The position numbers and the translations under genes were made by a program. The notes beneath the pieces were generated by a model. The model was given only the letters and a program-made list of their open reading frames with translations, searched no databases and had not been told where the DNA came from. This document shows positions 33,993 through 63,253 of a DNA stretch of 64,000 nucleotides, one piece after another (within the stretch, counting starts at the first letter, position 1; each line of letters begins with the position of its first letter). The stretch comes from Stenocarpella maydis (Eukaryota; Ascomycota; Sordariomycetes; Diaporthales; Diaporthaceae): the NCBI GenBank assembly GCA_002270565.1, contig NQMI01000178.1, positions 1 to 64,000 on the forward strand, in the 5' to 3' direction.

Positions 33993-34376
33993 TATGAAAG
34001 TATGCTTGTGTTAACTCCAAACAATTGAGTAGGACGAAGGGACGCGCCAGCACTTATTAAGCTCGACGACGTCTAGATGTTGGATGATGTCGAGGTGCAG
34101 GGCAGGCCAAGGCCGGCGTATCAGCGTTGAAGCCAAGCCTGAAGACCTAGCCACTGAGAAAGCGGGGCAGCAACGGAGGGCCTTGGCATGAACTGACATT
34201 AATACATATAAGCTAGTTTTATTCTTACTCTAGTTATAATATTTTATAAATTAAATAATCAGTTATACATAATACAGAAAAGATTATCTTGCACTTTAAA
34301 TTTAATATATAATACTTAAATATTAATTTAGGTAACTTATTTATAAAATAATTAATAATTCAAATTTAATGTAACC
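33993..34376. other. Upstream flank of PON-like gene
   Basis: Balanced up to about 34200, then AT-rich. No signal is recognised. Confidence 0.4.
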
Positions 34377-36778: not shown

Positions 36779-37194
36779 TGTAATGATCAGAGGGTTTCCG
36801 AGTATGTTAAACCTGAAAGATTAAGGGTTTATGTTTGGAATACGTTGTTAGGCAGTTGTTGAGCAATATCGTTAACTGATAATGATTACTAGCTGTAAGG
36901 CTATCCAATACTGGGATTGAATACTTAGATTGACGACTAAAGAGTCTATTCTAAAGAAGCTATCTACTATAGTGATAACTATATCCTTATATATTCTGAC
37001 TCTTCATTTGTAACTGGTAATAGCTTTATTAGCTTCATCCTAATTGACTAAAGCTAGATTGGGGCTCTTCTTAACCCTAACCCTAGTGAGGTGCTAGTCT
37101 TGGGGTCCTGCGGGGTCATGCCGTGGTGTCCGCCCTAAGAGCCTGGGTCCTCAAATAGGTCTTCCGGGGTGCCATTTATATTTAGCTCATAACA
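36779..37194 (-). repeat. LTR of family 2 (copy B, 3' LTR in minus sense)
   Basis: It starts TGTAATGATCAGAGGG and ends TCATAACA. The CTATCTCCCTTCTTACTTC immediately to its right is the reverse complement of a polypurine tract like the one before 50251. This copy is therefore a 3' LTR of a minus-strand element. Confidence 0.85.
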
Positions 37195-37528
37195 CTATCT
37201 CCCTTCTTACTTCTTTTATCCTTAAAAGTACTCCATAAGTTATTTCCGTTTATCTATATTTTTATTTATGCCTTCCTAATTCATTATATTAAGTAGAGTC
37301 ATTTAGTCCTATATCCAGAAGTTTAGTATCCTAAAGTTAACTATAAATTATTATGCTTTACTATAGACTATTAAAGAGAACTGTATTAATATGCCTGCAT
37401 ATTCTTCTTGTAAATCCTGAGGTCTTAGGGAGAGTTATTAGGTTTCTAAGTATTATTCTAGTTATTACTATAAGTATATTTATTAGAATCTTTTAGGGTG
37501 CAACGTTCTTGGTCTATCTGCTGCTAAC
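37195..37528 (-). mobile_element. 3' internal end of family-2 element
   Basis: The first 150 bp match, in reverse complement, the region just before the LTR at 50251, including the polypurine tract and the ATTTATGCCTTC stretch. The rest is unmatched and ends at the 5' LTR of the next element. Confidence 0.6.
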
Positions 37529-39391: not shown

Positions 39392-39789
39392 TGTTCCGGG
39401 GTCTAGGGGAACCAGCATATTTCGGAATCCGGAGGAAAACCAGCCTTAGCATCCCCCCCCTCCCTCCAAGACTATAAGAAGGGGCCTTCCTACATTGCTT
39501 TTAAGAAATTTCTAGTCCTAGAGAATCAATCTTTTTATACCCTATGAATTTATATCTATTAGATATATACATATATACTATAAAATCATTTCTTATGCCC
39601 TCTTTTTCTACCTCTCCTTTTTGGCACCCTCTATTCCCCTTATAACTCTCCTATCACATCAGGGGCTCCTCTTCTTGCCTTCCACGCTCCTCTTGGGGTG
39701 GTTGCTTAATCAGGGCTCTAGCAGAACGTGTGCCTTTTTGTATATATGGAGGTTTTATCCTTTTGCTCTCCCCTTTGGGCCCGTTTTCA
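39392..39789 (+). repeat. 5' LTR of family-1 element
   Basis: 398 bp, TG...CA. It is colinear with 47071-47470. The frame at 39621-39812 inside it has a counterpart at 47302-47490 and is not a gene. Confidence 0.88.
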
Positions 39790-42039
39790 CTAGTATCTGC
39801 CCCATAAATTAAACATGGGTTTCTTTAGCTAATAAGGTTTCTTCAGCCATTATGAAGTTCCTTAGCTTTTAGGCCTGGATTCCCTATTTTATTTATGAGG
39901 TTGTTGGCCACTTTAGGGGAGTGAATCTCTATACTTCTGATACCATTTGATTCTGATCAGAACTATAGCGCCCTCTCGCTCTTGATAGAGGATTTTGCTA
40001 TCATGCAAAGGCCAGATTTACCCTCCCAAGTTACCTATAGTTAACCCAGTGGCAATAAGAGCAGGTATGTGCAAGGCTGGTCTGATCTCTATACCGAGCT
40101 AACTCCATTACCTTAGCTATATCTTAGACCCCCTCCTGGCATACCTAATTTGGTAGTAAAGTATGGAACCTCTAGCCTAGCCATATATTCCTGGAAAAGC
40201 TACTAAGGGATTTATATCCTTAGGCCTTAGAAATTCATTCCAATTAGATTTAATGGCATCTAATTAGGGCTTATTTCCTTAAAAGGGATATAAAGGATTG
40301 GTATTAAGAAGGTTTGGTGGATCCTAACTGCTTATATTACTTAAAACTCTCTTGCCCTTAGATGTAGCACCTGAAGGTTCGGTATATTAATTCCCTAATA
40401 TGGGTAAACTAAGTATAATAAAGCCCCGGTTTAACTAATTAGGCCCCTCTTTAGTTTTCCCTTTTAAGTTATTATTATAATGTCTGGTTACCCTATTAAA
40501 CACTATATTTAAGATATTATCTAATATTATATAATGTTGGGTTGGGTAATAGTGGTACTAAATGTTGCATACTTCTGTAGGGAGTTGAAGAGGTTCCTGC
40601 CCTACCAACTGCTATTCTTCTGATTAATAAGCTTAAAGCTTCCACTATTATTAGCACCCCCTGCGATTAGGATAGCTGGCATTAGTAGCATAAGGGTATT
40701 CCGGGTATCTATATTGTCCTCTCCTATAAGACTAGCAATTAAGTAGCTCCCGCCTTCACCTATAGCAAGACTTCATAATACTTAATGTAACCTTCTATAC
40801 TAATACCTTTCACTCTAATCATACCTAGTTATTCCTATATATATCTTAGTGAACTTTAGATAGCACTTATGCCCTTATTTCTTCTGGATACACCTGGTAT
40901 AGAGAAACATTCAATACCTTCAGATAGCACTTATATCTCGCCTCTCCTAAAGGACCTTTAGTATTAAGAAACATTCAACTTCACTATTACCGCGAGGGAG
41001 TAATTAGGACCTAACCTATCCTATATGCATCTCTATAAACCCTGAATAGCACTTATGCCTTTACTTCTCCTAGATATACTTATTATAGAGAAATATTCAA
41101 TAATCTCGGATAGCACTTATACCTTGCCTCTTTAGCTGTAGCGCTAATGCAGAAAAACATTTGCCTTCATTATTATAGCAAGGGATAGATTAGGACTTAT
41201 ATCTTTTATTTTTCTAATAGGGGATGTTTATTTTACTCCCCTATTTACTGGAGGTTCTCCCTTTAGGGAAAGGGAGCAGGATATAGATAAGGTAAGGGGG
41301 CTCTTATTAAAGAAAGGTTCACCTTAAGGATACCAGTCTCCTTAGGAACCTGCCCCCACCCCATCTGGGACCTCTAATCAGGAGCATTATGCTCTTATGC
41401 TACCTATTCAGGCGACTTCTTAGCCTATTATACCTTTAATGCCCTTTGGAAATGCTGCCCTTTAGACCTTACTATTCCTTAGCTCTTAAGAGGATATTTA
41501 CAAAGGTAGGTCTAATTAGCTTAATCCTATAGCTATAGCTTTCTATAGGGATATAGAATATTATAGTATTAAGAAGTTTACTAGAGGCTATTTGGAATTT
41601 TTGCTTTAAAAAGGAAGGATGAGCTTACCTTGCATTTAGAGATATTAGTCTCTAATTGCTAGCTATCCCAAACTTAAGGGCAATATATCTCTTAAGGAAC
41701 TAAAGAATGATTTCTAATAAAGAGAAGGTAGTGCTAGAAATATAGCAAGGGACTTCCATTATGACTGGGGAGGGGAAAAGTAAAATAAAGGGTAATCTAA
41801 TTAGTCCGAGTAAGACTGAAAAGTTAATTAAAGCTAAGCCCAAATAAGGACCCCTAATCCCCCAGACCCCTAAAGCTAAGGCTATAGATGCTATCCTTGC
41901 TACCTCAATTAAAATGCTAATTTTGGATATTCTCACGCTTAGTAAGACTAATGCTATTCTAATTAGAAAGCTCCTTGCTTGCAGGGATAATACCTCTCTT
42001 AATGAGTGGCCTTTCAAGCCAGTCCTAGATAGGGATATG

Positions 42040-42589
42040 CCTCAAGCTATAGGTCCAGGACTTAGTATGGTCTCTACTTTATCTAAAATTGGATATAAGC
42101 AATGCTCGAGCTCTGATCAGATGCATATCATTAGGTATGAGGTAAATTTAATATTATCTTAAACTACTAATGTGGTGAACCATGGTTGCTACAGATCTGC
42201 CTACCTAAACATTAGGATTGCTTTAGAGAGCTATAAGATCCTCCCAGCCCTACTGGATATAAGTATTAAGATGAATCTTCTTCCTTTATCCTATTGCTAC
42301 CGGAATAAGTTATNACCTTAAGCTATAGATCCAGGACTTAGTATGGTCTCTACTTCATCCAAAATTGGATATAAGCAATGCTTGAGCTCTAATTAGACGC
42401 ATATCATTAGGTATAAGGTAAATTCAATATTATCTTAAACTACTAATATAGTAAACTATAGTTGCTGCAGATCCGCCTATCTAAACGTTAAGATTGCTTT
42501 AGAGAGCTATAAGATCCTCCCAGCCCTACTAAATATAGGTGCTAAGATAAATCTTCTTCCTTTATCCTATTATTACTAGAATAAGTTAT
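42040..42589. repeat. 274-bp segment twice around a single N
   Basis: 42040-42313 and 42316-42589 are diverged copies (mainly transitions), with the N at 42314 between them. Both contain the protease active-site region, so this looks like a join of two repeat copies. Confidence 0.75.
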
Positions 42590-45500
42590 CTTATGCTTTA
42601 CTTTAAAATATAAACTCTATAGTTTATAATGGAGTATTACTAGTACTAATCGGAATAACTAAGGAGTGGGTATGCATTAGCTATAATAGAATAAGGGCTA
42701 TTTTCTTTATTATAAATAATAAAATGAATAATACTACCTATAACATCCTTTTAGGGATGCCTTTCTTTTTAGATATAAATTTAACTTTTAAGCGATTAAG
42801 GGGGTTCCTTTTTGCATATATTACTCTTAATAGGTTGCAAGTAATATATAGGCTGGGGAGGAGGAATCAGAAGCCCTTTTAGGTAGCTGCTACCAAAGCA
42901 GTCTTCTGTTTGGATAGATATATACCCTAAAGACCTGCAACCTGATTCTAGCTAGACCTAGAAAAGGGGGCAGATTACTATTAATAGGACCTATCCCCTA
43001 ATGCGCCTAAAGAAATTTATCTATAAAAGGGGAATTTGAGAGCTAGTGGTACCTTTTCTTTAGGAGAACAACCCTCCTAAAAGTTAATAAACCGGGAGGA
43101 AGCTATTAGAGGTAGCTGGATATAATGTCTTCCTAGATATGCTAAATAATATACTCCATCCCACCACCCCTAATTAGGATAATAATAATTGGTACTAAGA
43201 CTGGTCTCTTTCTAGCCGGATGGTCCCCTAAGCGTAAGTATGCTTGGATATAGATAGCTTATATAATTCGGACTTATTGGATTCAGCTAATTAGACTTAA
43301 AGGATAACACTACATATAGATATTCCGCTTATTAACCCTAATAACCCCAAGCTAAAGGAATATGAATTCTGGGATAAGATATAAAAAAGTTACGATATAA
43401 AAAAAGTTAAGATAACATTATATCTTTAATCAGATAAGTATATTTCTCTTAGGACTACATGCGAGATAAAAATCATTAGTTCTTAATTTACTACTAAAAG
43501 AAGTATTAGCAACCTAAAAAACTGGATCCACCCTAGCCTTGCCTAACCCTTCTAATTACCTCATAACCATAACTAGAGATCCATAAGCTTATACTTGAAC
43601 TTCCTGGGCATATATCTAGTAATCTTGCCTACAGCATCTGCGCAAGTTTCCTCATATCCTATCTTAGTAGCTGCCTTAGTATACTTACCTAGCGAGAGCT
43701 CTAAAGGAGGCATATTTAAAGGCTTATTAATTAGATCGGAATGCACATTAATAATATAGTTGTAACTACTCTTAGAAATCTTTAGCATCTTAAAATTATA
43801 AAGGTAACCCTTAATATAGTAGATATAATTAGCGAAGCATACCTTAAAACCTAAAGCAATACATTAAAAGCAAAAGGATAAATCTGGATGAATGCCCTTG
43901 GAGAAGTTATTGTTTGGTTATAGTTAGTCCCTATCTGCTATATGTAATAGTTGCATGGGTTCGCATTGTAATAACCAAAGAAGGCAATAAGGAGAGCCAG
44001 GCCTCAATGAAGGTTATTCCCCTAGCACAGTTAAGACATATACTTCTTATAAGGGCCACCATTTATACTGTCTCTTATAAAAACATATTCAGACATCCTT
44101 TAATCAGAGTGCTAAGGTAAGACTGTAGGTACTTGCAAGCCTTTAGGGCTTTTAAGAAGGGAAAGAACAGTTTAAGTAGCTTAAATTTGTATAAGGAGAG
44201 GCCATAGAATAAAAGACCCCTTCGCCTTCCCTTGAGTTTATCACTTAAATTCATTATAAAGGCTTATAAGCGTAATTATAGACCATTTTATAAAAGGAGC
44301 CGTTTAGCTGAAAGTGCAGATGCCCCTCTTTAGGATAGGAGAGAGGATGATATTTAAGACCCTAACAATAGAAAAGGCAATTACTCCTTACCCTTTCCCT
44401 TCTCTTCTTGGCTCAATTAAGGAAGAGAAGATATAGTAATAGCGAAGCTCATCTAATCAGAGAGGCTTAATAGTTTAATAACAAGATTAATAATTAATAG
44501 TTAATAATACTATTAGGGGGAAGTTAAAGAAAAGGATTAATAGGGGAAAAGCAACTTTAAATACAAAAAGTTAGAAAGGGGAGCTCTTATTAGAAGCATT
44601 TAAAGCAGCAAAGGTTGCTACCTAGCAGAAAAGGGAAGGAAGTTAAGTAATTCACTAGCTCGAGTAATTCACCCATCTTAAGGCTCCCCTTCTAATAAAA
44701 GCCTACCTTTCTGCCACAACCTCCAACCCAACTACTTCTTCCACAACCACCACACCTCAACTAATCTCTAATCAGCGCAGCACAACTTGCATCATTAAGA
44801 CTCAAAAGCTGCTACAACCATCAACCTCTACCCTCAAAACTTATCACCTCCCCTCCATTACCTAATTTCTCCTTGCCTTAGCACCCTTTTCCCCAATCTA
44901 ACTAATCAGAAAGATATCTTCCTCAAGCTAGCAAATAATAAAAAAAGGTAAGGGAAAGAAGAAGGGATCCCCATTAATCCAATTTACAGCTATCAATAAT
45001 CCAAAAGGCTAAGTCAGCCCTATGAACGATCCCAACGCCCCTATGCCTACTATTGAGTACCCAGACCCTTTTAATTAGGTTGGCCTTAAAGCACGACTTT
45101 TAGTATTGCCCTTTATTACAAATTTTAATGATATCAACCCTATATAGTAGCTAAGATTTCCCAACCCATATAATATCCGCAATTAAGGAAACTAGGATCA
45201 CGGAGCTAGTGCAGACCTAATAAAAGACTCATTTGAAACTAGAATCCTTAATAATAGGTTAGCACTCTCCCAAGCTTTTAATATATCAGACCTTTTGGTG
45301 CGACCGCTATTCTTTTAGAATTAAAAATAGGGGTATAGTAATCATGCGTAGCGGGTAGTGGACATATATTTCAAGGGCATTAATCCCTATCCTTAGTTTA
45401 GAGACCCCCCTAGGCAGAAGAACCTATTTGGCACTCACTATAGTAACTTCCTTATAACCCTTTATAATACAGAAGGTCTCCTAGCTCAAGAGGCATACCT

Positions 45501-47070
45501 GCATACTAATTATATTCTGGGGCTTATTAATTAGCAGCTAATTAATTTCAGTAACCTGGTCTTTATAGTGCCCATAACCTATAATATTAATGGAGAACCC
45601 CCCAGATTATAGAGATACTACTTACTAAAGGACAGCTAGAGGTTCATCATCTAAGTCATATATACCCCAGGCCATTAGGTATTAAGTATCTTCAACAGGG
45701 ATACCAAACGACTCAGTATAATCAATACTTATCCTAATTAGAGAACTTATAATAGGATATACCCCCATATAAGGGACTGCATTGCATACTTCCTTACCCT
45801 TAGGTTACCTAAAGGATTCTTAAAATAAGTATGCATAGCGATCCAAGTAAAGGTTATGCTATAGCTAGGATCAACTACCTATAGACTCCTTATGGCTACC
45901 TATATTACCTTTTTCTTCCGAGAAAATTATGGAAAAAATGGCTAGGAGTTCAGAGACTAGATTAAGACTAGGCTGCTTGAATCCACCCCTCTTAGCTTGC
46001 CCGCTAAAAAAGCCTTAGCTCTTATCTAGGGTTTTGCTATCCAATCAGAAATTAATAGATCCAGGCGTCTAATTAGGGGCATCCAGAATATTCCAGTCAT
46101 TAACTACAACAAGTATAAGAGGCTCATAACAGGAAAGAATATCATATACTCTCAAGCTAATATCTTAGGGATAAATAAGGGGGAGACCAAGTATTATGCT
46201 ACACCCAGTGTGGGATTAGAACTGGGATAAAATCTGCTGGGCTTCCTTATAGTAAGATTTAATAAGGCTAATCTTTTAAGGCCTACTAATATCCGGACTT
46301 CTAGGTTGAGTAAAACTCTTATTACCCCTGACAGCTTGAAGAACCAGCCACCTATCCTAACATTTAAGATACCTAGTGTGGCCGTGAAGGATCTAATTAT
46401 AATATCTAGGCTTGGACTTCATAAGGACCCGTCCAAGACACCTAAGCCTCTGCCTCAGGCAGATAGGGTATGAACATATGGAGAAGATGGTCTTAGGATA
46501 CTAAGTGAAGCAAGAACTACTTTATGGATGCCTGATCGGAGTAGGGCTGGAATGCCACAGGGTGACCCTATTAAACTTCTCTTGTAGCAGATGTTGGAGG
46601 TAAGCATTAGGAATATATCCCTAGGAGGAAATATAAATATGGGTGGGATAACCCCTAAGTAATTAGGTATCTCAAGGTCTTTATTATTATCTCTATCCTC
46701 TATTCCGGCTATACCGCCACTATATCGCCTATTGCCTACTGTAATAAGAATCATAATGATTTAAGAGTATAACTGGAATGTGAGTAAGTAGGTAGGGACT
46801 GAGGAAGCGAATTGCTAGGTTCCCATGCTGGCAATTAATAACAGCTATTAATCCTGGGCTTATAAAAAGGCAGCTGAGTAAGAGGAGAAGGATTGTAGAC
46901 TGAGTGTGCTGTAATAGAATGAGAATAGGGATAAGCGGGCTAGGAATTAAGAGCTATAAAGGGTCCAACAGAGCTGAATTCGGGTGGCTTATCTAATTAG
47001 AGGAGGAAAGTGATTTTGGTTATTTTAGGCGGACTATTGCTTGTTCTTTATAATGGTTTGGAGAGGGGTG

Positions 47071-47470
47071 TATTCCGGGGTTTAGGGGAACCGGTATATT
47101 TTAGAATCTGAAGGAAAACCAGCCTTAGCATCCCCCCCCCCTCCCTCCAAGGCTATAAAAAGGGGCCTTCCTGCATTGCTTTTAAGAAATTTCTAGTCCT
47201 AGAGAATCAATCTTTTTATACCCTGTGAATTTATATCTATTAGATATATATATATATACTGTGAAACTATTTCTTGTGCCCTCTTTTTCTGCCTCTCCTT
47301 TTTGGCACCCTTTATTCCCCTTATAACTCTCCTATCGCGTCAGGGGCTCCTCTTCTTGCCTTCCACGCTCCTCTTAGGGTGGTTGCTTGATCAGGGCTCT
47401 GGCAGAACGTGTGCCTTTTTGTGTGTGTGGAGGTTTTGTCCTCTCGCTCTCCCCTCTGGGCCCGTTTTCA
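47071..47470 (+). repeat. 3' LTR of family-1 element
   Basis: 400 bp, preceded by a polypurine tract. The terminal TG has become TA. Confidence 0.88.
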
Positions 47471-49908
47471 ATATAACTTATATTATATAATATATTAAGG
47501 TAAACTTTAAGATATAAAAGCTACTAAAGTATTAACTATAAGTAAGAATTAAGTTCTTTTCTACTTAAATAAGAATTCTTATAAAAAGATCTTATAAGTA
47601 TTAAAGGATATTAAAGTAAATTTTAAATTATATAAAATATAATCTTTAATTAGTATTATTTAAAAGAAAAACTAACTAAGTCTAATTACCTATTATATTT
47701 TAAATATATTAACTCTATTCCTTCTCTCCTTAAACAATATTAATAAATTAAAAGTATACTTTAATAACCTTAAAAATGTTATTATATAAGAAGATATAGT
47801 TAAATTCCAATAATGTAGTAATAAGGATACTTATTTTTTAATATTAGCTATGAAATATCTAGAAACGTTTTGATAAACCTTAAGCTAAAATACCTATACA
47901 AATATTTTAAATATCCTTAAATAGAAAGAATAATAAATTACTTACGAATACTAGATATAATAATATAAAATAGTCTATTTTAAAAGAAATCTAGAAGTAT
48001 TATTGTTAGTATCAATTATATAAATAAGCTCCAAAATATTTTGAGCTCTTTATTAAGGATAAGATATACTTTAACTACTAAATTATAATTAACATTATAT
48101 AATTAAATAATAATGATATCCTCTATATAGTAAATATAAAAACTAACTTTTAAGCTAGAATATTTTAAATTTACTCTTTATATAAAACATATAAAATGCT
48201 TTCTACTAACATTAGATTTATATATATATTAAATCTTTAAATTAAATATTATATAGCTTAAAAATAACCTTAATATTTAAGGAATTCTAAAATAATATAA
48301 AACTCTTAAGTATTTCATATAAAGATATACTAATAGAAGTACATTAAGTAATTAGAAAGGTTAAAAAGCTATATATCATCCTTTAAAAAGAATATATAAT
48401 ATCCTAAATAAGGGAATTAAATATATTATAAATAAGGAGACTATATTCTAAGTAGCTATTAAAGCCCTTAATAATAGTATTAGCTTAAATAATATCATAC
48501 TAATTCTTTTAGTCTTTACGGCATATCTTTAAATTAACTAAGATTTATCCTTTTCTCTAGATATTATTCTTTATATAGAGGTAATTTAAAGAATAATAGG
48601 ATATTTTACAAAATATATGTAAAATTAGAGATTAAATCTATAGTTAATACTAAAAATAGTCTAACTTAATATAAATTCTTTATACTTTTGATAGGTATTA
48701 AAGTAACAATTTGAAAAAAAAATGGTTATACTAAACTATATAAACTAAAGGTTATAAAAGGTTATAACTTAACTATTAATATAATTAATAAGGTTTAAAT
48801 ATTATATATAATATAGGTTAAAATATATTTTTAGAAAATACGTCATTGAAAAATTAAAAGGTAAAATTATTATATAATTAAAGATAAATTAACCCTAAAA
48901 AAGAAGAAGTCTTTAAAAGATTATTATATAATCCTTCTATATATTCATTATACAAAAGAAGATAAATAACTTTAATTTAACTACTAAGTTTCATATAAAT
49001 AATATTATTAATATACCTAAAGGACTATTAAAGAAATTAAACATTTTGGAACTTAATATTATTAAAGATAAGAATATATTAACCTTTATATAATATAAAC
49101 CTAAAGGGATATATAAAGAGCTATAGATATAAAGATCTAGATAATATAGAAGATTAAGAATAAGTTTATATAATTAGTTAAAAAGTTAAAACCAGTTATA
49201 TAACGCTATAGAATTAAATAGAAATAAGCTATTTTACTTAAGCTTTAAAAGTTTAGTAGATAAGCTAATAGCTAATATTTACCGTTAAACTTCCCTTTAT
49301 ATAAAACTTTTATGCCTATAGTAAACTTAAAATATTACCTAGGTATATACTTAATTAAAAGACAAGCTAGAAAGAATAATTATTATATAACTACTAAAGG
49401 AGCTAGAGGAAAAGTACCACCTAAAAATGATTCATTTAATCTCTAAACTATTACATAATTTAATAAAGTTTAAGCTATATTAATACAAAACCTATTGTAT
49501 TTATTATATAAAGGCCTTAAAGATAAAAGTCTCTATATATAACTTATATGTAATAAATATACTTAATAGATTCAAGAATTTTATAATTATAAGAATATAA
49601 ATAAATAATACTTTTATATTTATAATTAAACCTTTCTTCTAAAGAAAGGAAGAGAAGCTATAGAAAAAGAAGTTTTATATAATGCTAAAAATTATGCTAT
49701 CTTAAGAATAATTTACTGAGTTTAATAAAGAGAGAATCTATCTTAAGAGTAAAGATATTACCTTTATTTAAAAAGAATAAGTAAACTAATTATATTTAGT
49801 AAACCCTTATATAAAAGATACTCCTTCATAATATATTATATAGTAAGCCTAAAGTACCTATACAGCCTTAATTTATTAACTAGAGGCTTTATATAACCTA
49901 TCTACAGC
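47471..49908. other. AT-rich degenerate block, possibly internal part of the family-2 element
   Basis: Extremely AT-rich with no readable domain. By position, between the inserted family-1 element and the family-2 3' LTR, it may be the eroded pol region of family 2. This is inference only. Confidence 0.4.
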
Positions 49909-49916
49909 NNNNNNNN
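49909..49916. other. Assembly gap (8 N)
   Basis: A run of eight N. Sequence on its right (49917-50087) is a copy of the LTR-like fragment at 14550-14720, starting abruptly at the gap. Confidence 0.95.
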
Positions 49917-50250
49917 AGACGACGTCGGAGGGTATATAAGGAGGGCTTACAGAAGCCCAACTTAATTCAATATAAAGTTGTCCAGACCATTGTCAATCGT
50001 CTGAATTCGCCTCAGAGCACCATACTGCGACCCTGCCGAAACACACACACGCTGAACTGAATGCTATTCTATAGCACAAATTCATCAGAATATTACTTAA
50101 CCTTTTTGGAATGGTAGGATAACTTAGAGATCTAAGAATCTTTAACTTTAGACAATATAATAAATTAAGAAGGCATAAATGAAAAACACAATAAATAAAA
50201 AATTACTTATGAAACACCTTTGAGGATAAAGGATGTAAGGAGGGAGATAG
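49917..50250 (+). mobile_element. LTR-like fragment, then 3' internal end of family-2 element
   Basis: 49917-50087 is the reverse complement of 14550-14720. 50100-50250 matches 37195-37350 in reverse complement and ends in the polypurine tract GGAGGGAGATAG. Confidence 0.65.
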
Positions 50251-50714
50251 TATTATGAACTACCTAGTATTAGCGGCTAACTACTGTAAAAAGCACCCCT
50301 AGCCTCAGCAGGGTAATCCTCAAGCTAGCTAAACACCTGATGGGCTAGTAACAACCCACCCCACTAAAGGTTAGGATCTGGCTCACAACGCTCAATTGCA
50401 AGCTATGTGAGCCCGCTTGCAGAATAAGGTATTAAGCCTTGCATTATAGCTTAATGGCTTGATAGGCAAGCCTATAAGCTACTAAAGAGTCGAAATATAT
50501 ATATAAGACATAGTTATTACCACAAGTAGATAGCTTTTATAGAATAGACTCTTTAGTCGTTAATCTAAGTATTTAATCCTAGTATTGGATAGCCTTATAG
50601 CTAGTGATTATTGTTAGTTAATAATATTGCTTAATAACTGCCTAATAATGTATTCTGAATATAAACCCTTGATCTTTCAGGTTTAATGTACTCGGAAACC
50701 CTCTGATCATTACA
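50251..50714 (+). repeat. LTR of family 2 (copy C, 3' LTR)
   Basis: 464 bp, starting TATTATGAAC (TG changed to TA) and ending GATCATTACA. It shares GACTCTTTAGTCGTTAATC and TAATGTACTCGGAAACC with the other copies and follows a polypurine tract. Confidence 0.85.
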
Positions 50715-51685
50715 TCCGGCTCCCTCCGGACCCACTTAGGATTCCACACACAAGAGCGCGGATTCCGGACTTATAGGATTTTCCTTCTACTTTTTCTTTC
50801 CTTATCAAACCTAGCTTAGCTACGGCCAATATATAGCGTTAGCTTATATGCACCCGTTATAATATTAATAGTATTCTATAAGAAAAAGATATAAGTTTTA
50901 AGAATATACTTAAATTTTAGCTTTTTAAAAATAATAAAAGATTCTAAAATAAGCTATATTAATATAAATCTTTAATTATATTATAAATTACTCTTATTAT
51001 AATAATATTAGGGTAATGTTAAATAGTTAGGAAAGGTTTTAATTCAAGATTTATAGGTTACTACTTAATATTAATAAGAGGGAGGTATAGAGTGATATTA
51101 CAGGCCTTATATAGGAGCTCTGGGCTGAAGAGGAGCGGGAAAACCTAGATAGGGAATAGATAATATAATGTGGCCGAAGCCCTTGTTAATAAGAAGACTG
51201 ATGCGCAATGTGAAAGGCGTGATGCGGCCTGGGACTGGGCTTAAGTGACTTTGACAGCTAAGGTAAACCTGAGCCACGGCACCTGCTCATCTTCGAAGGA
51301 CAACTACTCGTCAGCGGAATGCGATGGAGTAACATTAGCATGCTACCGGAGCCGCTATGTCTCCAAATAGGATGATAGTAGCATCTAACCAGCGAGACGC
51401 CAAGAAATACTTGTAGGAGCTTCGCAATGTCTCATAATGGAGCGTGCTGAAGCGGAATCTGGTGGAGGGCCAGATCTTACGGGATAATGGTACTGGTCAA
51501 CGGGTGGTATGGTTCGCATAATACTTACGTATTTGGTCTCAAACAAAATTGGTCGTTCCTTAAATATTTAGGTCCTGTTTAATCATTCCACAGCGTACCT
51601 CGTGCCGAACAGCTTTTTATATAGCCTACCTACTCAAGTAACTAGCTTAAAATTATCACCTCGTAGTTTTTGTCGAGTGTTCTAG
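50715..51685. other. Transition from repeat block to gene island 3
   Basis: AT-rich up to about 51060, then balanced. No gene is seen. Confidence 0.4.
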
Positions 51686-52030
51686 TTAGAAGCATTGTTG
51701 GCCATTTGCTTGCAACAAATCGGCATACCCACGGAGATTGGTTGGGTTGAATCTGTATTCCGGGTCTTGAATTTGTGTGTCTGTTATTCCAATCAGTACC
51801 TGACCAACAATGCTTGACAGTAGTTCCGCATCTTCGTAACTCCCAACCTTACTACTTAGTGGAACCAGAATCTCATGAATTTCCAAGCATTGTGTTATAA
51901 ACAAACTTGCTACAGTCTCTTTCACTCTCCCCAGATTCCTTCTTGGCAATACCATTGTATAATACTTTGTTGTTTTCTTTGGCCACCTTCCTAACGCCCG
52001 TTTGGCCTTCATTCTGACTACACGTCTCAA
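51686..52030 (-). CDS. Hypothetical 114-aa ORF, possibly a gene fragment
   Basis: The frame (MRRVVRMKAKRALGRWPKK..., ending ADLLQANGQQCF) has a fairly protein-like composition with an amphipathic middle (TQCLEIHEILVPLSSKVGSY). I recognise no domain. It sits at the edge of the repeat block and could be a pseudogene piece. Confidence 0.25.
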   Translation of the reverse strand: MRRVVRMKAKRALGRWPKKTTKYYTMVLPRRNLGRVKETVASLFITQCLEIHEILVPLSSKVGSYEDAELLSSIVGQVLIGITDTQIQDPEYRFNPTNLRGYADLLQANGQQCF

Positions 52031-53299: not shown

Positions 53300-55003
53300 G
53301 TGCATCCCAACGCTCTGTCAATGACAGCGCGACCAGTGCAGCGGGGCTATGGGGGCGCCCTGTTCGACCGCCTTGTATCGTGGCTGCAGGGCGTGCCGGC
53401 AGGAACATGCAGCTACACCATAACGCCGTTGAAGATACCCCTGGAGGGCGAAGACGTCCAGCTCGCAGCAGACCTCTACCAACCGGTCCTGAAGAACAAT
53501 GAGGCTCCAGCAGGAACAATCCTGATTCAATGTCCTTATGGCCGCGTCCTGATGACTTTGAGCACACGCTACTTTGCGTCGCGCGGCTACGTTGTGCTGT
53601 TCGTCTCCTGCCGTGGCACCTTCGGTTCAGGCGGAAAGTTCGACGCAGGCAGGATGGAATCGGATGACGGTCCACGTGTCGTGGAATGGATGCGTCAGCA
53701 GCTGTGGTACACAGGAAGCTTCGCGACGATAGGCGAGAGCTACCTGGCTTATACGCAGTGGGCTCTGATGAGCGACCCTGGGGGCCCACCCGACGATATG
53801 GTCGCGGCCATTCCAATGATAGGCCCTCACGACTTTTCCAAGTTGCTATGGGGCACCGGTGCTCTCTGGCTCACTTGCGTGGATTGGGCGAACATTACGA
53901 ATACCCAAGAGACGCAGCCCCTTTTTGGTCATATTTACCGCATGTTGACGACTGATATGAACACACTGGCCCACGTCAAGAAGTCTGTGCCGCTCATCGA
54001 CGGCGCCAGATCCTTTCTTAAAGGGAAGTCACCCTGGCTACTTGAATGGATTGCTCGCCCGGACCCGGCTAAAGATCCTTTCTATGACTCCATGAAACAC
54101 GAAAGGGCTTTTTACACCTCAAAGGTCTCAATCCTCCTGATTGCTGGCTGGCAGGATGTCTTTTGCGACACGGTGATCGAGCAATATCAGCTACTACGAG
54201 ACAATGGCTGTAATGTGGCTTTGACCGTGGGGCCTTGGAATCATCTACAGGCCGCGACCGGAGAAGGAGTGACAAAGCAGTCGTTAGAATGGTTTGACAA
54301 GCACCTTGCTAAACGGGTGGTGGAGGAAATCCGGCCAGCCCCAGTGAGAATCCACGTCACAGGAGTCAACGAGTGGAGATGGCTGCCCAGCTGGCCCCCT
54401 ACTACAACACCTTTGGAACTTAGCCTCGCCCCTCAAAGGGCCCTTGCCAAACAGCAGCCAGACAAAAGAACCGAGGTTTCGTTCACCTTCGACCCTCACG
54501 ACCCGAATCCAACAATGGGTGGCCCGCTCCTGTTCCACGGCGGTGTAGTCGACGACACCGCGCTGTCAAAACGCTCCGACGTTCTCACCTTTACCACGGC
54601 ACCCTTAGAACAAGGCCTCGAAGTCCTCGGCAGGGCGCACATCGAACTATGCCACAGCAGCGACAGTGTTCACGTTGACCTATTTGTCCGCCTGTGCGAG
54701 GTGAATGCCAAGGGTGTCTCGCACAACGTTACTGAGGTGTACAAGCGACTCGATCCCGGGCGTGCCAGGGCTGGAGAGGCGGTCAAGGTAGAGCTGGACC
54801 TGACGGACTGTGCTCATAGGTTCAACAAGGGGGCTTCCATTAGGGTGCTTGTCGCCGGTGGAAACTGGCCTTCATATTCATTCAACTTGGGCACTGGAGA
54901 GGACCAGGGCACGGGGACCACGATGAAGCCGGTGACGCACACTCTGCAGTTGGGCGGCAAATTAGGATCCAAGCTGGTGTTGCCTGTAAAATTGCTTGAT
55001 TGA
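53300..55003 (+). CDS. CocE/NonD-type hydrolase, X-Pro dipeptidyl-peptidase (S15) superfamily
   Basis: Single-exon, 567 residues; an alternative start is Met8 (53321). The alpha/beta-hydrolase domain (about 35-330) begins with LEGEDVQLAADLYQP and has SCRGTFGSGG (oxyanion/turn region). The nucleophile is in IGESYLAY (Ser147), the acid in GWQDVFCD (Asp286 or Asp290) and the histidine in GPWNH (His315). This is the order of the CocE/S15 catalytic triad. The C-terminal domain (about 340-560) has the jelly-roll pattern with GGVVDDTALSKRSDVLTF and LGRAHIELCHSSDSVHVDLF. Members cleave X-Pro dipeptides, esters or acyl groups. Substrate cannot be read from sequence. There is no signal peptide, so it is probably cytosolic. 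It lies 1.7 kb from the UstYa gene, with a pseudogene between. Confidence 0.85.
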   Translation: MHPNALSMTARPVQRGYGGALFDRLVSWLQGVPAGTCSYTITPLKIPLEGEDVQLAADLYQPVLKNNEAPAGTILIQCPYGRVLMTLSTRYFASRGYVVLFVSCRGTFGSGGKFDAGRMESDDGPRVVEWMRQQLWYTGSFATIGESYLAYTQWALMSDPGGPPDDMVAAIPMIGPHDFSKLLWGTGALWLTCVDWANITNTQETQPLFGHIYRMLTTDMNTLAHVKKSVPLIDGARSFLKGKSPWLLEWIARPDPAKDPFYDSMKHERAFYTSKVSILLIAGWQDVFCDTVIEQYQLLRDNGCNVALTVGPWNHLQAATGEGVTKQSLEWFDKHLAKRVVEEIRPAPVRIHVTGVNEWRWLPSWPPTTTPLELSLAPQRALAKQQPDKRTEVSFTFDPHDPNPTMGGPLLFHGGVVDDTALSKRSDVLTFTTAPLEQGLEVLGRAHIELCHSSDSVHVDLFVRLCEVNAKGVSHNVTEVYKRLDPGRARAGEAVKVELDLTDCAHRFNKGASIRVLVAGGNWPSYSFNLGTGEDQGTGTTMKPVTHTLQLGGKLGSKLVLPVKLLD

Positions 55004-55323: not shown

Positions 55324-55880
55324 TCACGATTCGATTGACATGAGACGATTATGCCCATCCGTAGTTATACCACTTTCCCGATCGAAGTTGGCCCTTTTGA
55401 TATTTAGCCGAAAAAGGTAGAGGATTCGACCCTCCGAGGATGTATACTCCTCAATTGGTACATTCACCCAAACCCCACGGCATGTGATGATAATGGGACC
55501 GCTCGTGCTGTTAGTTCCATCCGGGCTAAGGTATGGTGCCACATCACCAGAAGAGGCAAAGGAGGTGCCAGCAGGCCGGAGGTCTCACTGATGATTGTGC
55601 TCGCCCACGTGGAAGAGATTCATCGTCGTACGACCTGGCGATTTCTTCTTGCAGGCGAATCAAAGCCTCTGGACCTTCTCCGTATAGCAGAGGCCTCGAG
55701 ATGTCAAAGATCCCCAGCAAGCAGTATGCGATGCACTCCTTGAGAGTCGCCTTCCGAGTTGAGGCCCAAGGCATCTTGCGCGCAACGTCGAAGAAGCGCA
55801 GATTTCCACCACCTAGGGCCTTGATGTTGCCTTGGAACCCTTCGGGATCCAATTCTTGTTGTAGTCAACAAGAACCTTAC
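55324..55880 (-). pseudogene. HET-domain (heterokaryon incompatibility) protein fragment
   Basis: The minus-strand frame at 55544-55852 reads ...KMPWASTRKATLKECIAYCLLGIFDISRPLLYGEGPEALIRLQEEI. This is the conserved end of the HET domain region of HET-E/HET-6-like proteins (WASxRxT..ED.AY.LLGIFD...LLYGEG..AF.RLQEEI). Downstream the coding sense changes frame twice in about 60 bp before GTSFASSGDVAPYLSP and VWVNVPIEE. The upstream HET core is missing and runs into AT-rich DNA. Both frameshifts and truncation mark it as inactive. HET genes control non-self recognition at hyphal fusion. Confidence 0.75.
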
Positions 55881-56747: not shown

Positions 56748-58091
56748 TCAATGAGGCTTTACATCCTCCGGCGACTCACCAACGTGGCGGAAGTCGGAAG
56801 GATATGACATCCTGTCAGGGAACTCAGTATCCTTCCCATCCGGCACCACGGGACCTGTAGAAGAGCAGATAGGGTCAGCTTTCTGTCCCCACAAAAACAA
56901 GCACCGCTTAGAGTGGTAAAAACTCACCAAGGACAGGATGCACCAACAGGCCAGGCTCCCACGGGTTGACGTGGCGCCTCCTGAGCTCGCCCTTGAGCAT
57001 GTCCCAGTTGACACATTCGTGCGCAATATCGGAGTTGCCAGTGGGGCGGGGGTCCAGCGCGTACCACCTTGAGGTGTATGGGGCAGTGTCTGCATGGCAA
57101 ATAACCTGCTGAACGAGGTCCTCGAGACAGTGCACTGCAAGAAAGTTGCCGTGTTAGCTCGACCCGAGATCATGCTGCGAGGTTTTGAAGCTCTTCCGCT
57201 TACTGTCATGCTTGTTCATCTTCTGCTGCTCATCCTCTGTTATATTAGGATAATAATATTCCGAATACCGTGAGTGATGAAGGCGTTTCTTGAGGCCACG
57301 TCAGTAGACTGTGTGCACACAGACAGCGGAGGAGCAACATTGGCTTACCAAGCAATGAAGCAAATGATTGACAGTATACAGGACGATATAATTTCCTAGC
57401 CATAGTCAGTGTTTGTTTCCAGTATCAAGTGGCCACTTCACAGCACGAAAGTCAGGAGCTCATCATGGAGCGCAGTCACTCTTCGCTGAGTATGCTCACC
57501 ATTAGGTAGTTGTATGGCTTCATCAGCTCGCCCAAGACGTTCCATTTCCTCACGAGGGAACTCTGAGAAGAAGACTAGCACGCGCGAGAGTCATCAGCAA
57601 GCCTCCTGAACAAATCTATACAAAAGACACAGGTTTGGGGGACTCACATTGAGTCAGGTCGTCCCACACCGCATCACGCTCCCCACTGGCGTCCGGAGGT
57701 CCAGCAACCATGAAGTGAGTGGTGTCCATTTTCGGAAACCACTTCTCCTCATACTTGACATATGGTCGCAAAGGTGCTGAAGAGAAAGAAGTCAGCCTCA
57801 TGAACCAGATATCTTGTGGTAAGGAGAGCTCTCCCAGGCATACGCACATCTCACAACTCCGGGCCCGTGTAACATGTCGTTCATCCACCACCATGAAGTC
57901 GCCCCGACAAGGAGCGAGGTGTAGAGCAGGAAGACTGATGTGCGCATAACAAGGGCGCGCATGCGTGATTTGCGCGCGGCGGCGGCCATTGCGCCGTAAA
58001 TCAGGTCATCTTGCTCGCTCGCCTCCTCAGAGTCCCTGGAGTCTGAGACGGGGTCGTACTCGGGGAGGTTCTTCTTCTCGAGCGATGGCAT
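56748..58091 (-). CDS. UstYa-family (DUF3328) oxidase, RiPP/dikaritin type (7 exons)
   Basis: Minus-strand exons: 58091-57848, 57776-57648, 57574-57500, 57395-57349, 57288-57204, 57134-56928 and 56854-56748 (894 nt, 297 residues). Introns are 60-104 nt and phases agree at every junction. The acceptor at 57289 is AAG. Residues 1-45 are acidic then basic, followed by one membrane helix (about 46-66, MRTSVFLLYTSLLVGATSWWW). The lumenal part has AVWDDLTQ (the family's WDDL) and NGNYIVLYTVNHLLHCL with the first HxxHC (His160-Cys164). The second HxxHC is at HDMHC (192-196). These motifs occur only after splicing. UstYa proteins modify and cyclise Kex2-released core peptides in ustiloxin, asperipin and phomopsin pathways. 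The neighbouring divergent gene is such a precursor. I am confident in the family; the reaction is inferred. Confidence 0.9.
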
Positions 58092-59673
58092 CCTGATTTG
58101 AGCGTTTCTGAGAAATTGAAATAATTTCGCAGTAGGCATACTGATCAATAATGTTGTTGGTCTTGAGAGCAACCTGAAGAGAGAGGCTGGTGGTCAAAAT
58201 CCTTAAACACTTCGAAGCGGGATGAGTCCCTGCTTTAAGATCTCGAGCGCGGTGGGCGAGTTTCAATGACATGGTAATTTCCATTGCCAACGAATTCCAA
58301 CCATGGATAGCTCTGCCGCTGCACATGTGACTGATCCCTTCAAGACGGGTGATCCTGCGTTCATCACGCTCAAGGGCCGCCATAGCCGATAATGCCCTGG
58401 GGATCGACCTCGGAGTTCCGCTCGTCCCAAACACTCTGGCCGTAGATCAGCTGCAGTACACGTATACTATACAACCTTAGGAGCCCTGTACGGTCCATAA
58501 CGTATGCAACTGTTCACGCTGATCCGAGGTGGAATGTGACCACTTCTCAGCGGCAAGGTCGGCATGCAGTTTTGTCGTGATCACTTCTGGCCTGTATAAG
58601 TTTCGAAGTTATCTCAGACCCACTCAATACCCTCGCTCTTGGCCGCAGATCAGCTCCAAAACTGCAATCCACGTATACACACTCGCATGAATCACGCCTG
58701 CCCCGCGGTGTATGTATGGGACTGATTACAGCGGCCAGGCTGGCATACGCGCCGTAGCAGGATCTACGGGCTTAGATTGTGGACTCTGGACATCTGGAAA
58801 AGCGGCACGGTGCGCCTGGAGGTCACATGCCAGCTGGATCAGTTCTTCTCCGGAGGTTGGGGCTCCTATCCAGTCCAAAGCAGGACGAGGCTGACTTGTA
58901 TGCATTTCGAAGTTCTTCTATTATACCTTTCACATTATGACCTCTCTTGCAGTCTAATCATCTGCGGTGAGAAACCCATATTTTAAATGGATAGGTCGGT
59001 GGTATACGTTCGTTGACATTACGCTGGTGAAGAGGTGTTGTTGCACAGAGCATATAGTAATGGCAGTACATCACGGCGGAATGTAAACGGAAATCACGGC
59101 TCAGCTCCGAAGATCTACGATCCACGACAGAAGCCGTAGAGTTTAAGATCTGGACCCACTCAGTTCGGTCCCGAAAATTACTATCAAGACCGATTCTCGC
59201 GAGTAATTACACGATGCCGGACATCACATCGTTAGTCTATGCATCGGAACCGACTGTTCTCCGCCAGATCAGATTGGGTTGACTGCAGGGTTGTCCGACC
59301 CCAAAGTCCCCAGTTTTCTACGGGGAAGTACGAGGCATAGTAGCAGTGATTGTGTTGTCACAAGTGTAGATCAAAGTTTAAGTTAACGTTATCAACTTGT
59401 CACAAGTCAACTTGACCCACTTTCTACTCATTCACTTGCATACCAATCGAAAAGAATTATACGTTGCGAAGGGCATACCAGTCTGCAGTCTGTCGGCACA
59501 AGCACAAGACAGGACCAATATGGTGTGCAAAGCGTATCTGGAGCTTGGTTCAAAATATATAAACCATCACCACTCCTCTGATGTCTCTTCCCACCTCATC
59601 ATCCCTATATCCAAGTCAAAAAAACACAGAAACATCTTCTATCACGACTTCTTGTCAATCCCCATCCGCAAAA
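58092..59673. promoter_or_regulatory. Divergent intergenic region between UstYa gene and peptide precursor
   Basis: 1.6 kb that should contain both promoters. A short sequence recurs: GGCCGTAGATCAGCTGCAG...ACGTATAC at about 58438-58468 and GGCCGCAGATCAGCTCC...ACGTATAC at about 58641-58678. No complete gene is seen. A shared bidirectional promoter would fit co-regulation, but the distance is long. Confidence 0.4.
59553..59563 (+). promoter_or_regulatory. TATA box of the peptide precursor gene
   Basis: AAATATATAAA lies about 110 nt upstream of the ATG at 59674. It is followed by a pyrimidine-rich leader (CTTCTATCACGACTTCTTG) as in strongly expressed fungal secretory genes. The start context is CAAAAATG. 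Confidence 0.55.
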
Positions 59674-60096
59674 ATGCAGACCAGGCAACTCGTTCTTGTC
59701 GCAGCCTTGATGCTGTCTGGAGCTTATGGCGCTCCGCACATGAAGCACTGTATGTGAGATCACCTGTGTTTGTGCCGACAGCCAACTAATGATACTGCAG
59801 CTACTGCGAAGGCAGCCCCGGGCGCTGGCGTCGATGATGATGCCGTCTGGTCTCTGATTAGCGAGAAGCGTGAGGCCAAGCCGGGTGTTGATGATGATGC
59901 CGTCTGGTCTCTGATCAGCGAGAAGCGTGAGGCCAAGCCGGGCGTTGATGATGATGCCGTCTGGTCTCTGATCAGCGAGAAGCGTGAGGCCAAGCCGGGC
60001 GTCGATGACGATACCGTCTGGTCTCTGATCAGCGAGAAGCGTGAGGCCAAGCCGGGCGTCGATGACGATACCGTCTGGTCTCTGATCAGCGAGTAA
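59674..60096 (+). CDS. Kex2-processed repeat peptide precursor (dikaritin-like RiPP precursor)
   Basis: Exons 59674-59749 and 59801-60096 (intron 51 nt: GTATGT donor, CTAAT branch site, CTGCAG acceptor) give 123 residues. Residues 1-20 are a signal peptide (MQTRQLVLVAALMLSGAYGA). A short spacer follows, then five copies of an acidic peptide. Units 2-4 are 19 residues, EAKPGVDDD(A/T)VWSLISEKR. Unit 1 starts APGAGVDDD and unit 5 ends at ISE before the stop. Lys-Arg Kex2 sites lie at 48-49, 67-68, 86-87 and 105-106. After each KR the Glu-Ala pair resembles the Ste13-trimmed spacer of alpha-factor. The architecture is that of UstA/PhomA/GigA-type precursors, and a UstYa gene lies next to it. There are no cysteines and no tyrosine in the repeats; Trp is the only aromatic. 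A pheromone or other secreted signal peptide is the main alternative. Confidence 0.88.
59815..60093 (+). repeat. 57-bp coding tandem repeat (five units)
   Basis: Five in-frame units of 57 bp (first and last partial) encode the repeated peptide. Units are almost identical at DNA level. Units 1-3 carry GCC (Ala) and units 4-5 carry ACC (Thr) at the same codon, plus a few silent changes (GTT/GTC, GAT/GAC). This indicates recent unit duplication or homogenisation. Confidence 0.9.
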
Positions 60097-61057: not shown

Positions 61058-63253
61058 TCAATGTCGTGCCATAATGTATTCTATGCTCACACACTTTGGA
61101 TCCCACAAATCCGTGTCATCACCCATCCACCATGGTCCTCGCGCTGGAATTCTAAAGCCCGGCCTCCTTGGCCGGGTTCCATTATGGTTAGGGGGAGAAG
61201 GCCGCCCCAGCGGCGGTGGTAAGCATCTATCCCCATCACCATCACCACTATGTGGTGGATATTCACACCTTGGCCCATATCCCGGCCCTCCGACCCGAGA
61301 ACCTCGTCCCCTACCGGGCTGACGTGGACGCGTCCCATTCCCATGGTGCCTGCCTGGGCGACCACCAGGACCACCTCCTCCTATGCTGTGAGCCAATGGC
61401 CACATCGGGATGTAGCAACGCTCGTCCCACGCGCACGTCTCCCGGCACCCATAGTACTCGCTCTCCCACCCTAGCCAGGCCTGTAGCTCCTCGAGATGCC
61501 CGTGCCACCGGTCCGCTCTGGCAGCGAGCGCACCCACAAGGATATCCGCGTGCCCTTTGGTGCCGTCTGTATAGTCCAACCACGCTTGCTCGATTTCAAA
61601 GCCCAGCGTCAGGAGTACCGAGCATATTGTCCCGTGGACGACTTCCACAGCTATACGGATGTCCTCTTCCTCGGGGGGCAGGGATATCCGGAGTTCCTCT
61701 GGGACTAGTAGTCTCGTATACCTGTACTTGCAGCGAGAATATGTTTCTTGGTAGAGAATCGCTTGCGTAGACCATGTTCCTGGTCCGATATTGTCGGGGT
61801 ACTCCAGGTATCCCACCATGAAGAGGTGGGTCTGGGCTCTCAGGTCATAGAGCCACCTGGATACCGCCGTCTCGTTCCGCTGGTCCAATGGGAACGACAT
61901 GATCTTGGTGTCTACCATGGTGAGGTGGTTGGTCGTCCGCTGCAAGATCTCGGATGTGATCAAAACCCAGTCCGCGCCGCTGCAGTTGTTGTTGTCAGTC
62001 AGAAGGCTCCGCAGCGACCTCTCTGAGTTCACTCTCATGAGCGAGGCCTCACCTGGCACGGCCTCCTCCAGGTGATGAAACCGCCGCCTCCGCGCCAGCT
62101 GCCTGATGGCTCTAGTCCTGTTGCCGGACTCGCCAGGTCCCTTCCAGAGGCCCTCGGCCGTCAAATTTAGGCTTTTTTGCTCGTCCAATGCCCGGTTGAG
62201 TGACTGGTTTGGGAATTGATGCGAGTAGTAGCTCAGAATGCCACAGCTCAGCACCCTGGCCCTGACTTCACCACGTCCAGGCCCGTTCCGTGTCGAGCCG
62301 TAGTGCCATGTGGCGGAATCAAACCAACCCCAGCCCTGTATACCCAAGAATGGTTCACGGCCGAGGTCGTGACGCCAATTTGGTGGCGCCGCGGGGTGCG
62401 AAGGCTCAGAGTCGCGCCCTGTTCTTGTTGGTTGCGGTGGCAGAGGGTAATAAGACGTTGGCTGCTTCTCAATAGTGCTCAGGACAGGCGCCTGCGAGGG
62501 CTCGTCGAGCTCGTCGCCTGTAATCTTGCCGTCGTCTTCCGCAGCTAACAAGGGCGCCGTGACGTTTAGCCTTGAGACCAGCCGCAGGCTTGGACTTGAG
62601 AAGTCGCACCAAATCATCTCAAACCCAGCGTTCATTCTCACCACTCCTTCAAACCCCCAGCCTCTTCCCCCGAGCCCCGCGTCTTCGAGCCACTGGCACA
62701 GTCCATGCGCCCTCAAGTACTCCTGCCCTAGGCCGAAGAAGCCCTCTCCCGGAGGCCCGGTCACATTCCCAAAGAGCTGAAGCATCTGCGTGTCCAGCTG
62801 ACCCAGGCCCATGAGTGCAGCCGACTCGCCGTCAAAGTAGAGGGCCTTGATGGGGCGGGTGGTCTGGTAGGTCAGCAGGAAGGAGTTGCGCGTCGAGCCC
62901 ATGATGCCGTAAGCCATCTCCAGGTCGAAGGCCAGCCACTCGGGGCTGGGCGGGGCCGGGGCAGATTCATCCGGGGATATGAGGCCGTGGTAGAAGAGTG
63001 TGTAGGCCGGGACCTCGACAGGCGCGAGGGTGTGGCCGTTGGGGAAGATGGTGTTGCTCCATTGATGCAGCAGACTGGAAATGGAGGCAAAAAGGTGGGG
63101 GGTCGGGGATGTGAAGTTCAGGGTGCATCGAGTTTGTCCCTGCAGCTCCTCCGGGATTCGCGCGTCGTCAATCAACGGCTTCTGCAGAGAAGCAGCCAGA
63201 ACGCAGCCGGGCACGACAGCAACAGTGCATAGCACGAGATACCACAACATCAT
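61058..63253 (-). CDS. Conserved-looking secreted glycoprotein of unknown function
   Basis: Single-exon, 731 residues. The start at 63253 gives a signal peptide (MMLWYLVLCTVAVVPGCVLA); Met2 is an equivalent start. The ectodomain has many N-glycosylation sequons (NFT, NVT, NQS, NLT, NRT, NCS, NET, NGT). It also has several Cys pairs, notably CRETCAWDERCYIP near residue 615. FDLEMAYGIMGSTRNSFLLT and LYFDGESAALMGLGQLDTQM are strongly patterned segments. The C terminus is Gly/Pro/Arg/His-rich low complexity with no membrane anchor. I recognise no named domain. It is minus-strand, 1 kb from the peptide precursor. Whether it belongs to that pathway cannot be told. Confidence 0.75.
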   Translation of the reverse strand: MMLWYLVLCTVAVVPGCVLAASLQKPLIDDARIPEELQGQTRCTLNFTSPTPHLFASISSLLHQWSNTIFPNGHTLAPVEVPAYTLFYHGLISPDESAPAPPSPEWLAFDLEMAYGIMGSTRNSFLLTYQTTRPIKALYFDGESAALMGLGQLDTQMLQLFGNVTGPPGEGFFGLGQEYLRAHGLCQWLEDAGLGGRGWGFEGVVRMNAGFEMIWCDFSSPSLRLVSRLNVTAPLLAAEDDGKITGDELDEPSQAPVLSTIEKQPTSYYPLPPQPTRTGRDSEPSHPAAPPNWRHDLGREPFLGIQGWGWFDSATWHYGSTRNGPGRGEVRARVLSCGILSYYSHQFPNQSLNRALDEQKSLNLTAEGLWKGPGESGNRTRAIRQLARRRRFHHLEEAVPGEASLMRVNSERSLRSLLTDNNNCSGADWVLITSEILQRTTNHLTMVDTKIMSFPLDQRNETAVSRWLYDLRAQTHLFMVGYLEYPDNIGPGTWSTQAILYQETYSRCKYRYTRLLVPEELRISLPPEEEDIRIAVEVVHGTICSVLLTLGFEIEQAWLDYTDGTKGHADILVGALAARADRWHGHLEELQAWLGWESEYYGCRETCAWDERCYIPMWPLAHSIGGGGPGGRPGRHHGNGTRPRQPGRGRGSRVGGPGYGPRCEYPPHSGDGDGDRCLPPPLGRPSPPNHNGTRPRRPGFRIPARGPWWMGDDTDLWDPKCVSIEYIMARH

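Follow-up and report, generated by a model that had tools for sequence, protein, structure and literature searches.

A conserved, dikaritin-like precursor and UstYa gene pair with a tryptophan core in Stenocarpella maydis

The precursor gene, the UstYa gene and their surroundings

The window analyzed here is a stretch of 64,000 nucleotides of S. maydis DNA from the start of a contig of 78.3 kb. It contains a gene for a secreted-type repeat protein and a UstYa/DUF3328 gene, which point away from each other and have 1582 bases (~1.6 kb) between their start codons. The features are shown in Table 1.

Table 1. Features of the locus (positions in the window)
Feature	Position	Strand	Remarks
Precursor gene, repeat protein	59674..60096	+	123 aa after splicing
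Predicted signal peptide, MQTRQLVLVAALMLSGAYGA	59674..59733	+	Cleavage point by eye
Predicted intron, 51 nt	59750..59800	+	GTATGT donor, CTAAT branch, CAG acceptor; frame open after removal
Core 1, VDDDAVWSLISE	59830..59865	+	
First KR-EAKPG spacer	59866..59886	+	Kex2 site, then X-Ala and X-Pro dipeptides
Core 2, VDDDAVWSLISE	59887..59922	+	
Core 3, VDDDAVWSLISE	59944..59979	+	
Core 4, VDDDTVWSLISE	60001..60036	+	
Core 5, VDDDTVWSLISE	60058..60093	+	Stop codon directly after
TATA-like site TATATA, upstream of the precursor gene	59556..59561	+	
Region shared by the divergent genes	58092..59673		
UstYa/DUF3328 gene	56748..58091	-	7 exons, 297 aa, HLLHC and HDMHC motifs
UstYa exons	58091-57848, 57776-57648, 57574-57500, 57395-57349, 57288-57204, 57134-56928, 56854-56748	-	
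CocE/NonD-like hydrolase (Peptidase_S15 Pfam)	53321..55003	+	Neighbour; candidate cassette member at most
731-aa protein	61058..63253	-	Neighbour; signal-like N-terminus by eye; candidate cassette member at most

The precursor gene starts with an ATG at 59674 and ends with a stop codon at 60094-60096. Its predicted signal peptide, read from hydropathy and by eye, includes a hydrophobic 11-mer (residues 6-16, mean Kyte-Doolittle value 2.54). Seven GT..AG pairings of 45-120 nt gave an open product, three of which kept the signal peptide; the donor and branch consensus, judged by eye, were best for 59750/59800. A sequence-only reading had placed the gene at 59674..60096 with a 51-nt intron, and our model agrees with these coordinates and this intron length. 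Transcription and the intron are both predicted from the DNA letters.

The five 12-residue cores follow one another in a 57-nt register, with the consensus VDDD(A/T)VWSLISE. The KR-EAKPG spacer is also found after cores 2, 3 and 4, which makes four internal KR sites, each followed by EA and KP. Tandem Repeats Finder reported a period of 57, 4.7 copies, 96% matches and a score of 478, a tandem repeat beyond any chance pattern. The earlier description of a signal peptide and five near-identical peptides delimited by Lys-Arg is borne out, and Trp without Tyr or Cys was found, as claimed, in all five window units. The whole precursor has no Cys, and its only Tyr lies within the signal peptide. Pairwise codon differences among the repeats in the reading frame were 16 synonymous and 6 nonsynonymous; this pattern was dropped as strand evidence because one open antisense frame also gave 16:6. 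The plus strand is assigned from the start codon, the signal peptide, the intron and four database proteins with a like architecture. A search of the S. maydis genome (53.5 Mb, 312 contigs) returned one match, so that a second copy of the precursor was absent.

The intact, divergent UstYa/DUF3328 gene is the key neighbour that the first reading had missed. The spliced protein matched the Pfam UstYa profile with 125.2 bits (E 4.4e-36), with HLLHC at residue 160, HDMHC at residue 192, and a hydrophobic 19-mer (residues 46-64) as a predicted transmembrane helix. The gene model is based on splice consensus and aligned relatives; its first donor is the least sure, with two open alternatives. A search of the PDB found no UstYa-like sequence, the only match being unrelated (E 0.53), and an AlphaFold2 model of the Claviceps relative, built with 12 sequences, was of too low a quality for use (mean pLDDT 50, pTM 0.37).

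The hydrolase gene was considered as an X-Pro dipeptidyl peptidase that trims the spacer, and was rejected: it is S15 by Pfam name, but in NCBIfam and the PDB it matches esterases of the CocE type. These matches, together with the lack of any signal peptide to the eye, make it unlikely that the protein acts in the secretory pathway. The 731-aa protein had no match in Pfam or NCBIfam. Between the hydrolase and UstYa genes, a 106-aa frame (55544-55864, minus strand) had no Pfam match; by eye it looks like the terminal part of a HET-domain protein of fungi. Other genes on the contig code for an SDR, a purple acid phosphatase and a gamma-glutamyltranspeptidase, and no tie between them and the precursor/UstYa pair was seen.

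AT-rich, RIP-like blocks (34000-52000 in the window, and 74.0-78.3 kb of the contig) flank a gene island of ~22 kb that includes the cassette. One of them holds a tandem duplication at 42036-42589 (a 276-base unit in two copies, 88% matches). Such flanks, with their RIP-like dinucleotide indices, could suggest that the locus lies in an AT-rich region marked by RIP and is dead or not expressed, a reading that we regard as very improbable: both genes are open, their TA/AT values of 0.35 and 0.63 are gene-like against 1.3-1.4 in the AT-rich blocks, the UstYa metal motifs are intact, and the relatives are conserved.

Relatives, core conservation and linkage

The precursor had been called new, and it turned out not to be unique. 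A protein search (7992 candidates scored, E up to 1) found at least two related proteins, E4U57_002278 of Claviceps arundinis, the best among the matches listed, and DHEL01_v210499 of D. helianthi, whose signal peptide is similar to that of S. maydis. Two further Claviceps precursors, E4U17_006715 and E4U32_003233, came from a profile search (7989 candidates scored, E up to 10). There are therefore at least four annotated relatives, three from Claviceps and one from D. helianthi, and five precursors were compared, including that of the window.

Splitting the five precursors at KR gave 20 pieces, of which 15 end in a core and three are signal region only; the remaining two, a dipeptide and an 11-residue tail of E4U32_003233, lack the core. 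All 15 units end in VW-x-L-(I/L)-(S/A)-(E/D), with V, W and the L two residues after W invariant. The residue directly after W is S in 12 units, A in two and F in one, and the last three positions are I (13) or L (2), S (13) or A (2), and E (8) or D (7). Ahead of the core, D occupies each position of the acidic pair in 14 of the 15 units; this count used a pattern requiring VW-x-L, and the unconditioned list of pieces gives the same 15 units. In 13 units Trp is the sole aromatic residue; of the other two, one has Phe as well and one has Tyr. The units are not independent, because those within a protein, as well as two of the Claviceps precursors, are near-copies. The core strings had no match in the literature searched, and our literature search on Claviceps RiPPs returned no description of a VW-x-L precursor family.

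The UstYa protein search (1521 candidates, E up to 0.001) found at least 12 proteins. Among them, E4U57_002277 of C. arundinis is 66% identical over 97% to the window's UstYa, and a Diaporthe fragment aligns with 59% of the query at 90% identity. All 13 aligned UstYa proteins have both HXXHC motifs without variation. None of the 12 matches listed is from D. helianthi, although its precursor is annotated. Pyrenochaeta and Claviceps proteins are 70.6-76.7% identical to each other (four comparisons), and either is 64.2-67.5% identical to the window's UstYa. In the tree, Pyrenochaeta groups with the Diaporthe pair (support 94/91) and the placement of Claviceps is unresolved. As this grouping is at odds with the identity values, we make no claim of horizontal transfer.

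Beyond the S. maydis window, linkage was assessed in C. arundinis alone, where E4U57_002277 (UstYa) and E4U57_002278 (precursor) have consecutive locus tags, from which we take the genes to be neighbours. The consecutive tags argue for a pairing that has been kept in both Claviceps and the Diaporthe-like source fungus. The proposal of a Kex2-type repeat precursor of the fungal RiPP kind is strengthened by the intact UstYa gene ~1.6 kb away and by the recurrence of the pair in Claviceps.

The UstYa/DUF3328 profile had 62 matches in the genome, one of them in the window; merging gave about 43 loci. With ~43 loci in 53.5 Mb, a rough estimate is that ~0.56% of random points fall within 3 kb of a UstYa locus. 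Several of these loci occur in groups of three to five (contigs C240, C20, C67, C219, C150 and C23 listed), for example five merged loci within 15 kb at 316-331 kb of C240, and loci at 134-140 kb of C20. A scan for KR-delimited repeats (49 records, 295,607 bases) found two precursors, the one in the window and one on C219. Two is a lower bound, because the scan misses diverged repeats; of the 43 loci, 29 were covered with at least 1 kb on both sides and 11 with 4 kb, and 12 had no cover at all. The C219 precursor (about 142.0-142.3 kb) lies less than 1 kb from another UstYa match and has a 55-nt intron after the signal region. It reads MKFF...LPRAG followed by three units ending in VDGTQIAEGW, with KR between them; the units contain Trp and no Tyr, and are unrelated to the window's precursor.

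Proposed processing and modification

The cassette is real and conserved, and it is dikaritin-like with an unusual Trp core. We consider the precursor and UstYa genes to be a minimal two-gene, dikaritin-like RiPP cassette, with a probability of roughly three in four, and the cassette probably makes a peptide natural product. The pairing of a KEX2-processed repeat protein (KEP) with a UstYa gene is a published hallmark (PMC7329392), and one UstY gene is reported to be enough for asperipin-2a (PMC12048977).

The precursor would enter the secretory pathway and be cleaved by Kex2 after KR; trimming by a carboxypeptidase would take off the KR, and EA and KP may then be lost to a dipeptidyl peptidase of the Ste13 type, leaving about GVDDD(A/T)VWSLISE. 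Kex2 is reported to cut after KR and Ste13-type enzymes to remove X-Ala and X-Pro (PMC6339444). In the S. maydis genome there is one Kex2-type match (proprotein-convertase P domain) and two Ste13-type matches (DPPIV_N). The calculated [M+H]+ values are 1405.648 for GVDDDAVWSLISE (1403.633 with -2H), 1435.659 for GVDDDTVWSLISE (1433.643 with -2H), 1348.627 for VDDDAVWSLISE (1346.611 with -2H), and 1830.876 for the untrimmed EAKPGVDDDAVWSLISE (1828.860 with -2H).

According to one published view, Ste13 does not act on the precursors of ustiloxin and phomopsin (PMC6339444), which makes the X-Ala/X-Pro spacer more pheromone-like. The units could then be secreted linear signalling peptides of the pheromone or KEP type, with the neighbouring UstYa serving something else; the EA-KP spacer fits X-Ala/X-Pro trimming by Ste13, of which most descriptions in Ascomycota concern alpha-pheromones (PMC6339444). 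We judge this improbable, given that the unit has neither Cys nor a pheromone-like core, that the UstYa link recurs in Claviceps, and that pheromone KEPs near DUF3328 genes are given as only three exceptions in a published survey (PMC7329392). An alpha-pheromone pattern search of the S. maydis genome gave 40 matches against 16 in the reversed control; KR repeats were present in none of the six candidate loci read, and a protein query had no match.

In the two-gene RiPP cassette, the membrane-anchored UstYa, predicted by motif and family to be a dicopper enzyme, would act as an oxidase in a Golgi-type lumen on the invariant VW-x-L. DUF3328 proteins are described as dicopper membrane enzymes that depend on O2 and face the lumen of the organelle; HxxHC is the dicopper site, and the loss of its residues abolishes the activity of CctR (PMC12435403). 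UstY enzymes are reported to form the bond between Tyr-O and Phe-C-beta of asperipin-2a (PMC12186524).

As for the product of the S. maydis enzyme, we hypothesize a bond from the Trp indole to the side chain of the Leu two residues on. Ustiloxin and phomopsin cores have a Tyr-x-Ile spacing, and a Trp-Leu bond in VW-x-L would copy that of ustiloxin. We tentatively suggest, at odds that lean against it, that UstYa forms a ring by way of the Trp indole, with this Leu as the probable partner, so that the product would be the fungal equivalent of the Trp-Leu burpitides that an unrelated dicopper enzyme makes in plants. There would then be a Trp-linked class of UstYa RiPPs common to Diaporthe-like and ergot fungi, with the C219 precursor as a possible independent case. 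A precedent for the proposed bond was found only outside the UstYa family: the stephanotic acids and moroidin of plants have a link between Leu-C-beta and Trp-C6 (PMC11253845). In the literature searched there was no report of a Trp cross-link made by UstYa, a weak negative since subscription papers and survey supplements were outside its scope.

A UstYa gene does not imply cross-linking, because UstYa-family proteins are also reported to hydroxylate, halogenate, and desaturate or install dehydroamino acids (PMC10512285, PMC12435403, PMC12186524). It is quite plausible, if short of an even chance, that the product is a UstYa-linked RiPP without a Trp cross-link, hydroxylated or desaturated (e.g., at Leu, Ile or Val) or modified at another residue, with Trp kept for binding or activity. 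Across the 15 units, Val and Leu vary no more than Trp does. The survey of 1461 strains reported 7878 KEPs, 1758 of which had DUF3328 genes near them, and Trp occurred in 20.5% of the repeats with such genes near and in 24.5% of those without (PMC7329392). Trp was not enriched, and is therefore not marked as a general UstYa partner. The corresponding values for Tyr were 65.6% and 38.2% (PMC7329392). It speaks against a product without a Trp cross-link that 13 of the 15 units have no aromatic residue but Trp, as the UstYa macrocycles reported usually join through an aromatic side chain.

The dicopper nature of UstYa/DUF3328 enzymes was shown only recently, and the UstYa macrocycles described in the literature searched use Tyr or Phe. 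A small, conserved pair of precursor and enzyme in which most units have Trp as their sole aromatic residue offers a clean way to ask whether the family can couple indole, and it invites comparison with the plant dicopper cyclases that do so. The presence of the cassette in Claviceps and Diaporthe-like plant associates makes its natural role a testable question.

Comparison with known systems

The cassette shares with the dikaritins (ustiloxin, phomopsin, asperipin-2a, victorin and epichloecyclin) a signal peptide, repeated cores delimited by Kex2 sites, and an adjoining UstYa/DUF3328 gene (PMC10512285, PMC9233826). It differs in having Trp where they have Tyr or Phe, a single UstYa gene, and the X-Ala/X-Pro spacer. 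The view of the sequence-only reading that known dikaritin cores carry a Tyr was too narrow: the victorin ring is reported to be closed through Phe and Leu (PMC9233826), and 34.4% of the repeat sequences of UstYa-linked precursors have no Tyr (PMC7329392). In a broad, gene-based sense the locus is a dikaritin one, with an HXXHC-bearing UstYa/DUF3328 gene beside the precursor. A strict definition asks for a core Tyr for the Tyr-ether cross-link, and Tyr was found in none of the five units. The five-gene definition of Ding et al. includes tyrosinase and methyltransferase genes (quoted in PMC12048977). The genome has 27 tyrosinase matches, none of them on the window's contig (C87), and Pfam scans of nine window frames and six further frames named no methyltransferase. 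Because of the Tyr and tyrosinase results, we do not file the cassette as a strict dikaritin.

The architecture is also that of the KEPs, with a signal peptide and KR-delimited units, which average about five repeats (PMC10512285); the S. maydis precursor has a UstYa neighbour, as only 22% of the 7878 KEPs do (PMC7329392). Ascomycete alpha-factor precursors share KR followed by X-Ala/X-Pro dipeptides, found here at all four KR sites. In contrast to the Cys-containing core asked of that class, the core of S. maydis is acidic, free of Cys and accompanied by a UstYa gene. CctR, a DUF3328 hydroxylase, has the same HxxHC(x)nHxxHC motif and single transmembrane helix as the window's UstYa, and acts on a different kind of substrate, a non-ribosomal cyclic peptide (PMC12435403). 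The plant burpitides of the stephanotic acid/moroidin type, in which dicopper enzymes join the Trp indole to Leu, are comparable in working only (PMC11253845). Their QLLVW cores share VW with the S. maydis core (PMC11253845); theirs are plant systems with BURP enzymes and have Leu before Trp, whereas in S. maydis the Leu comes after it.
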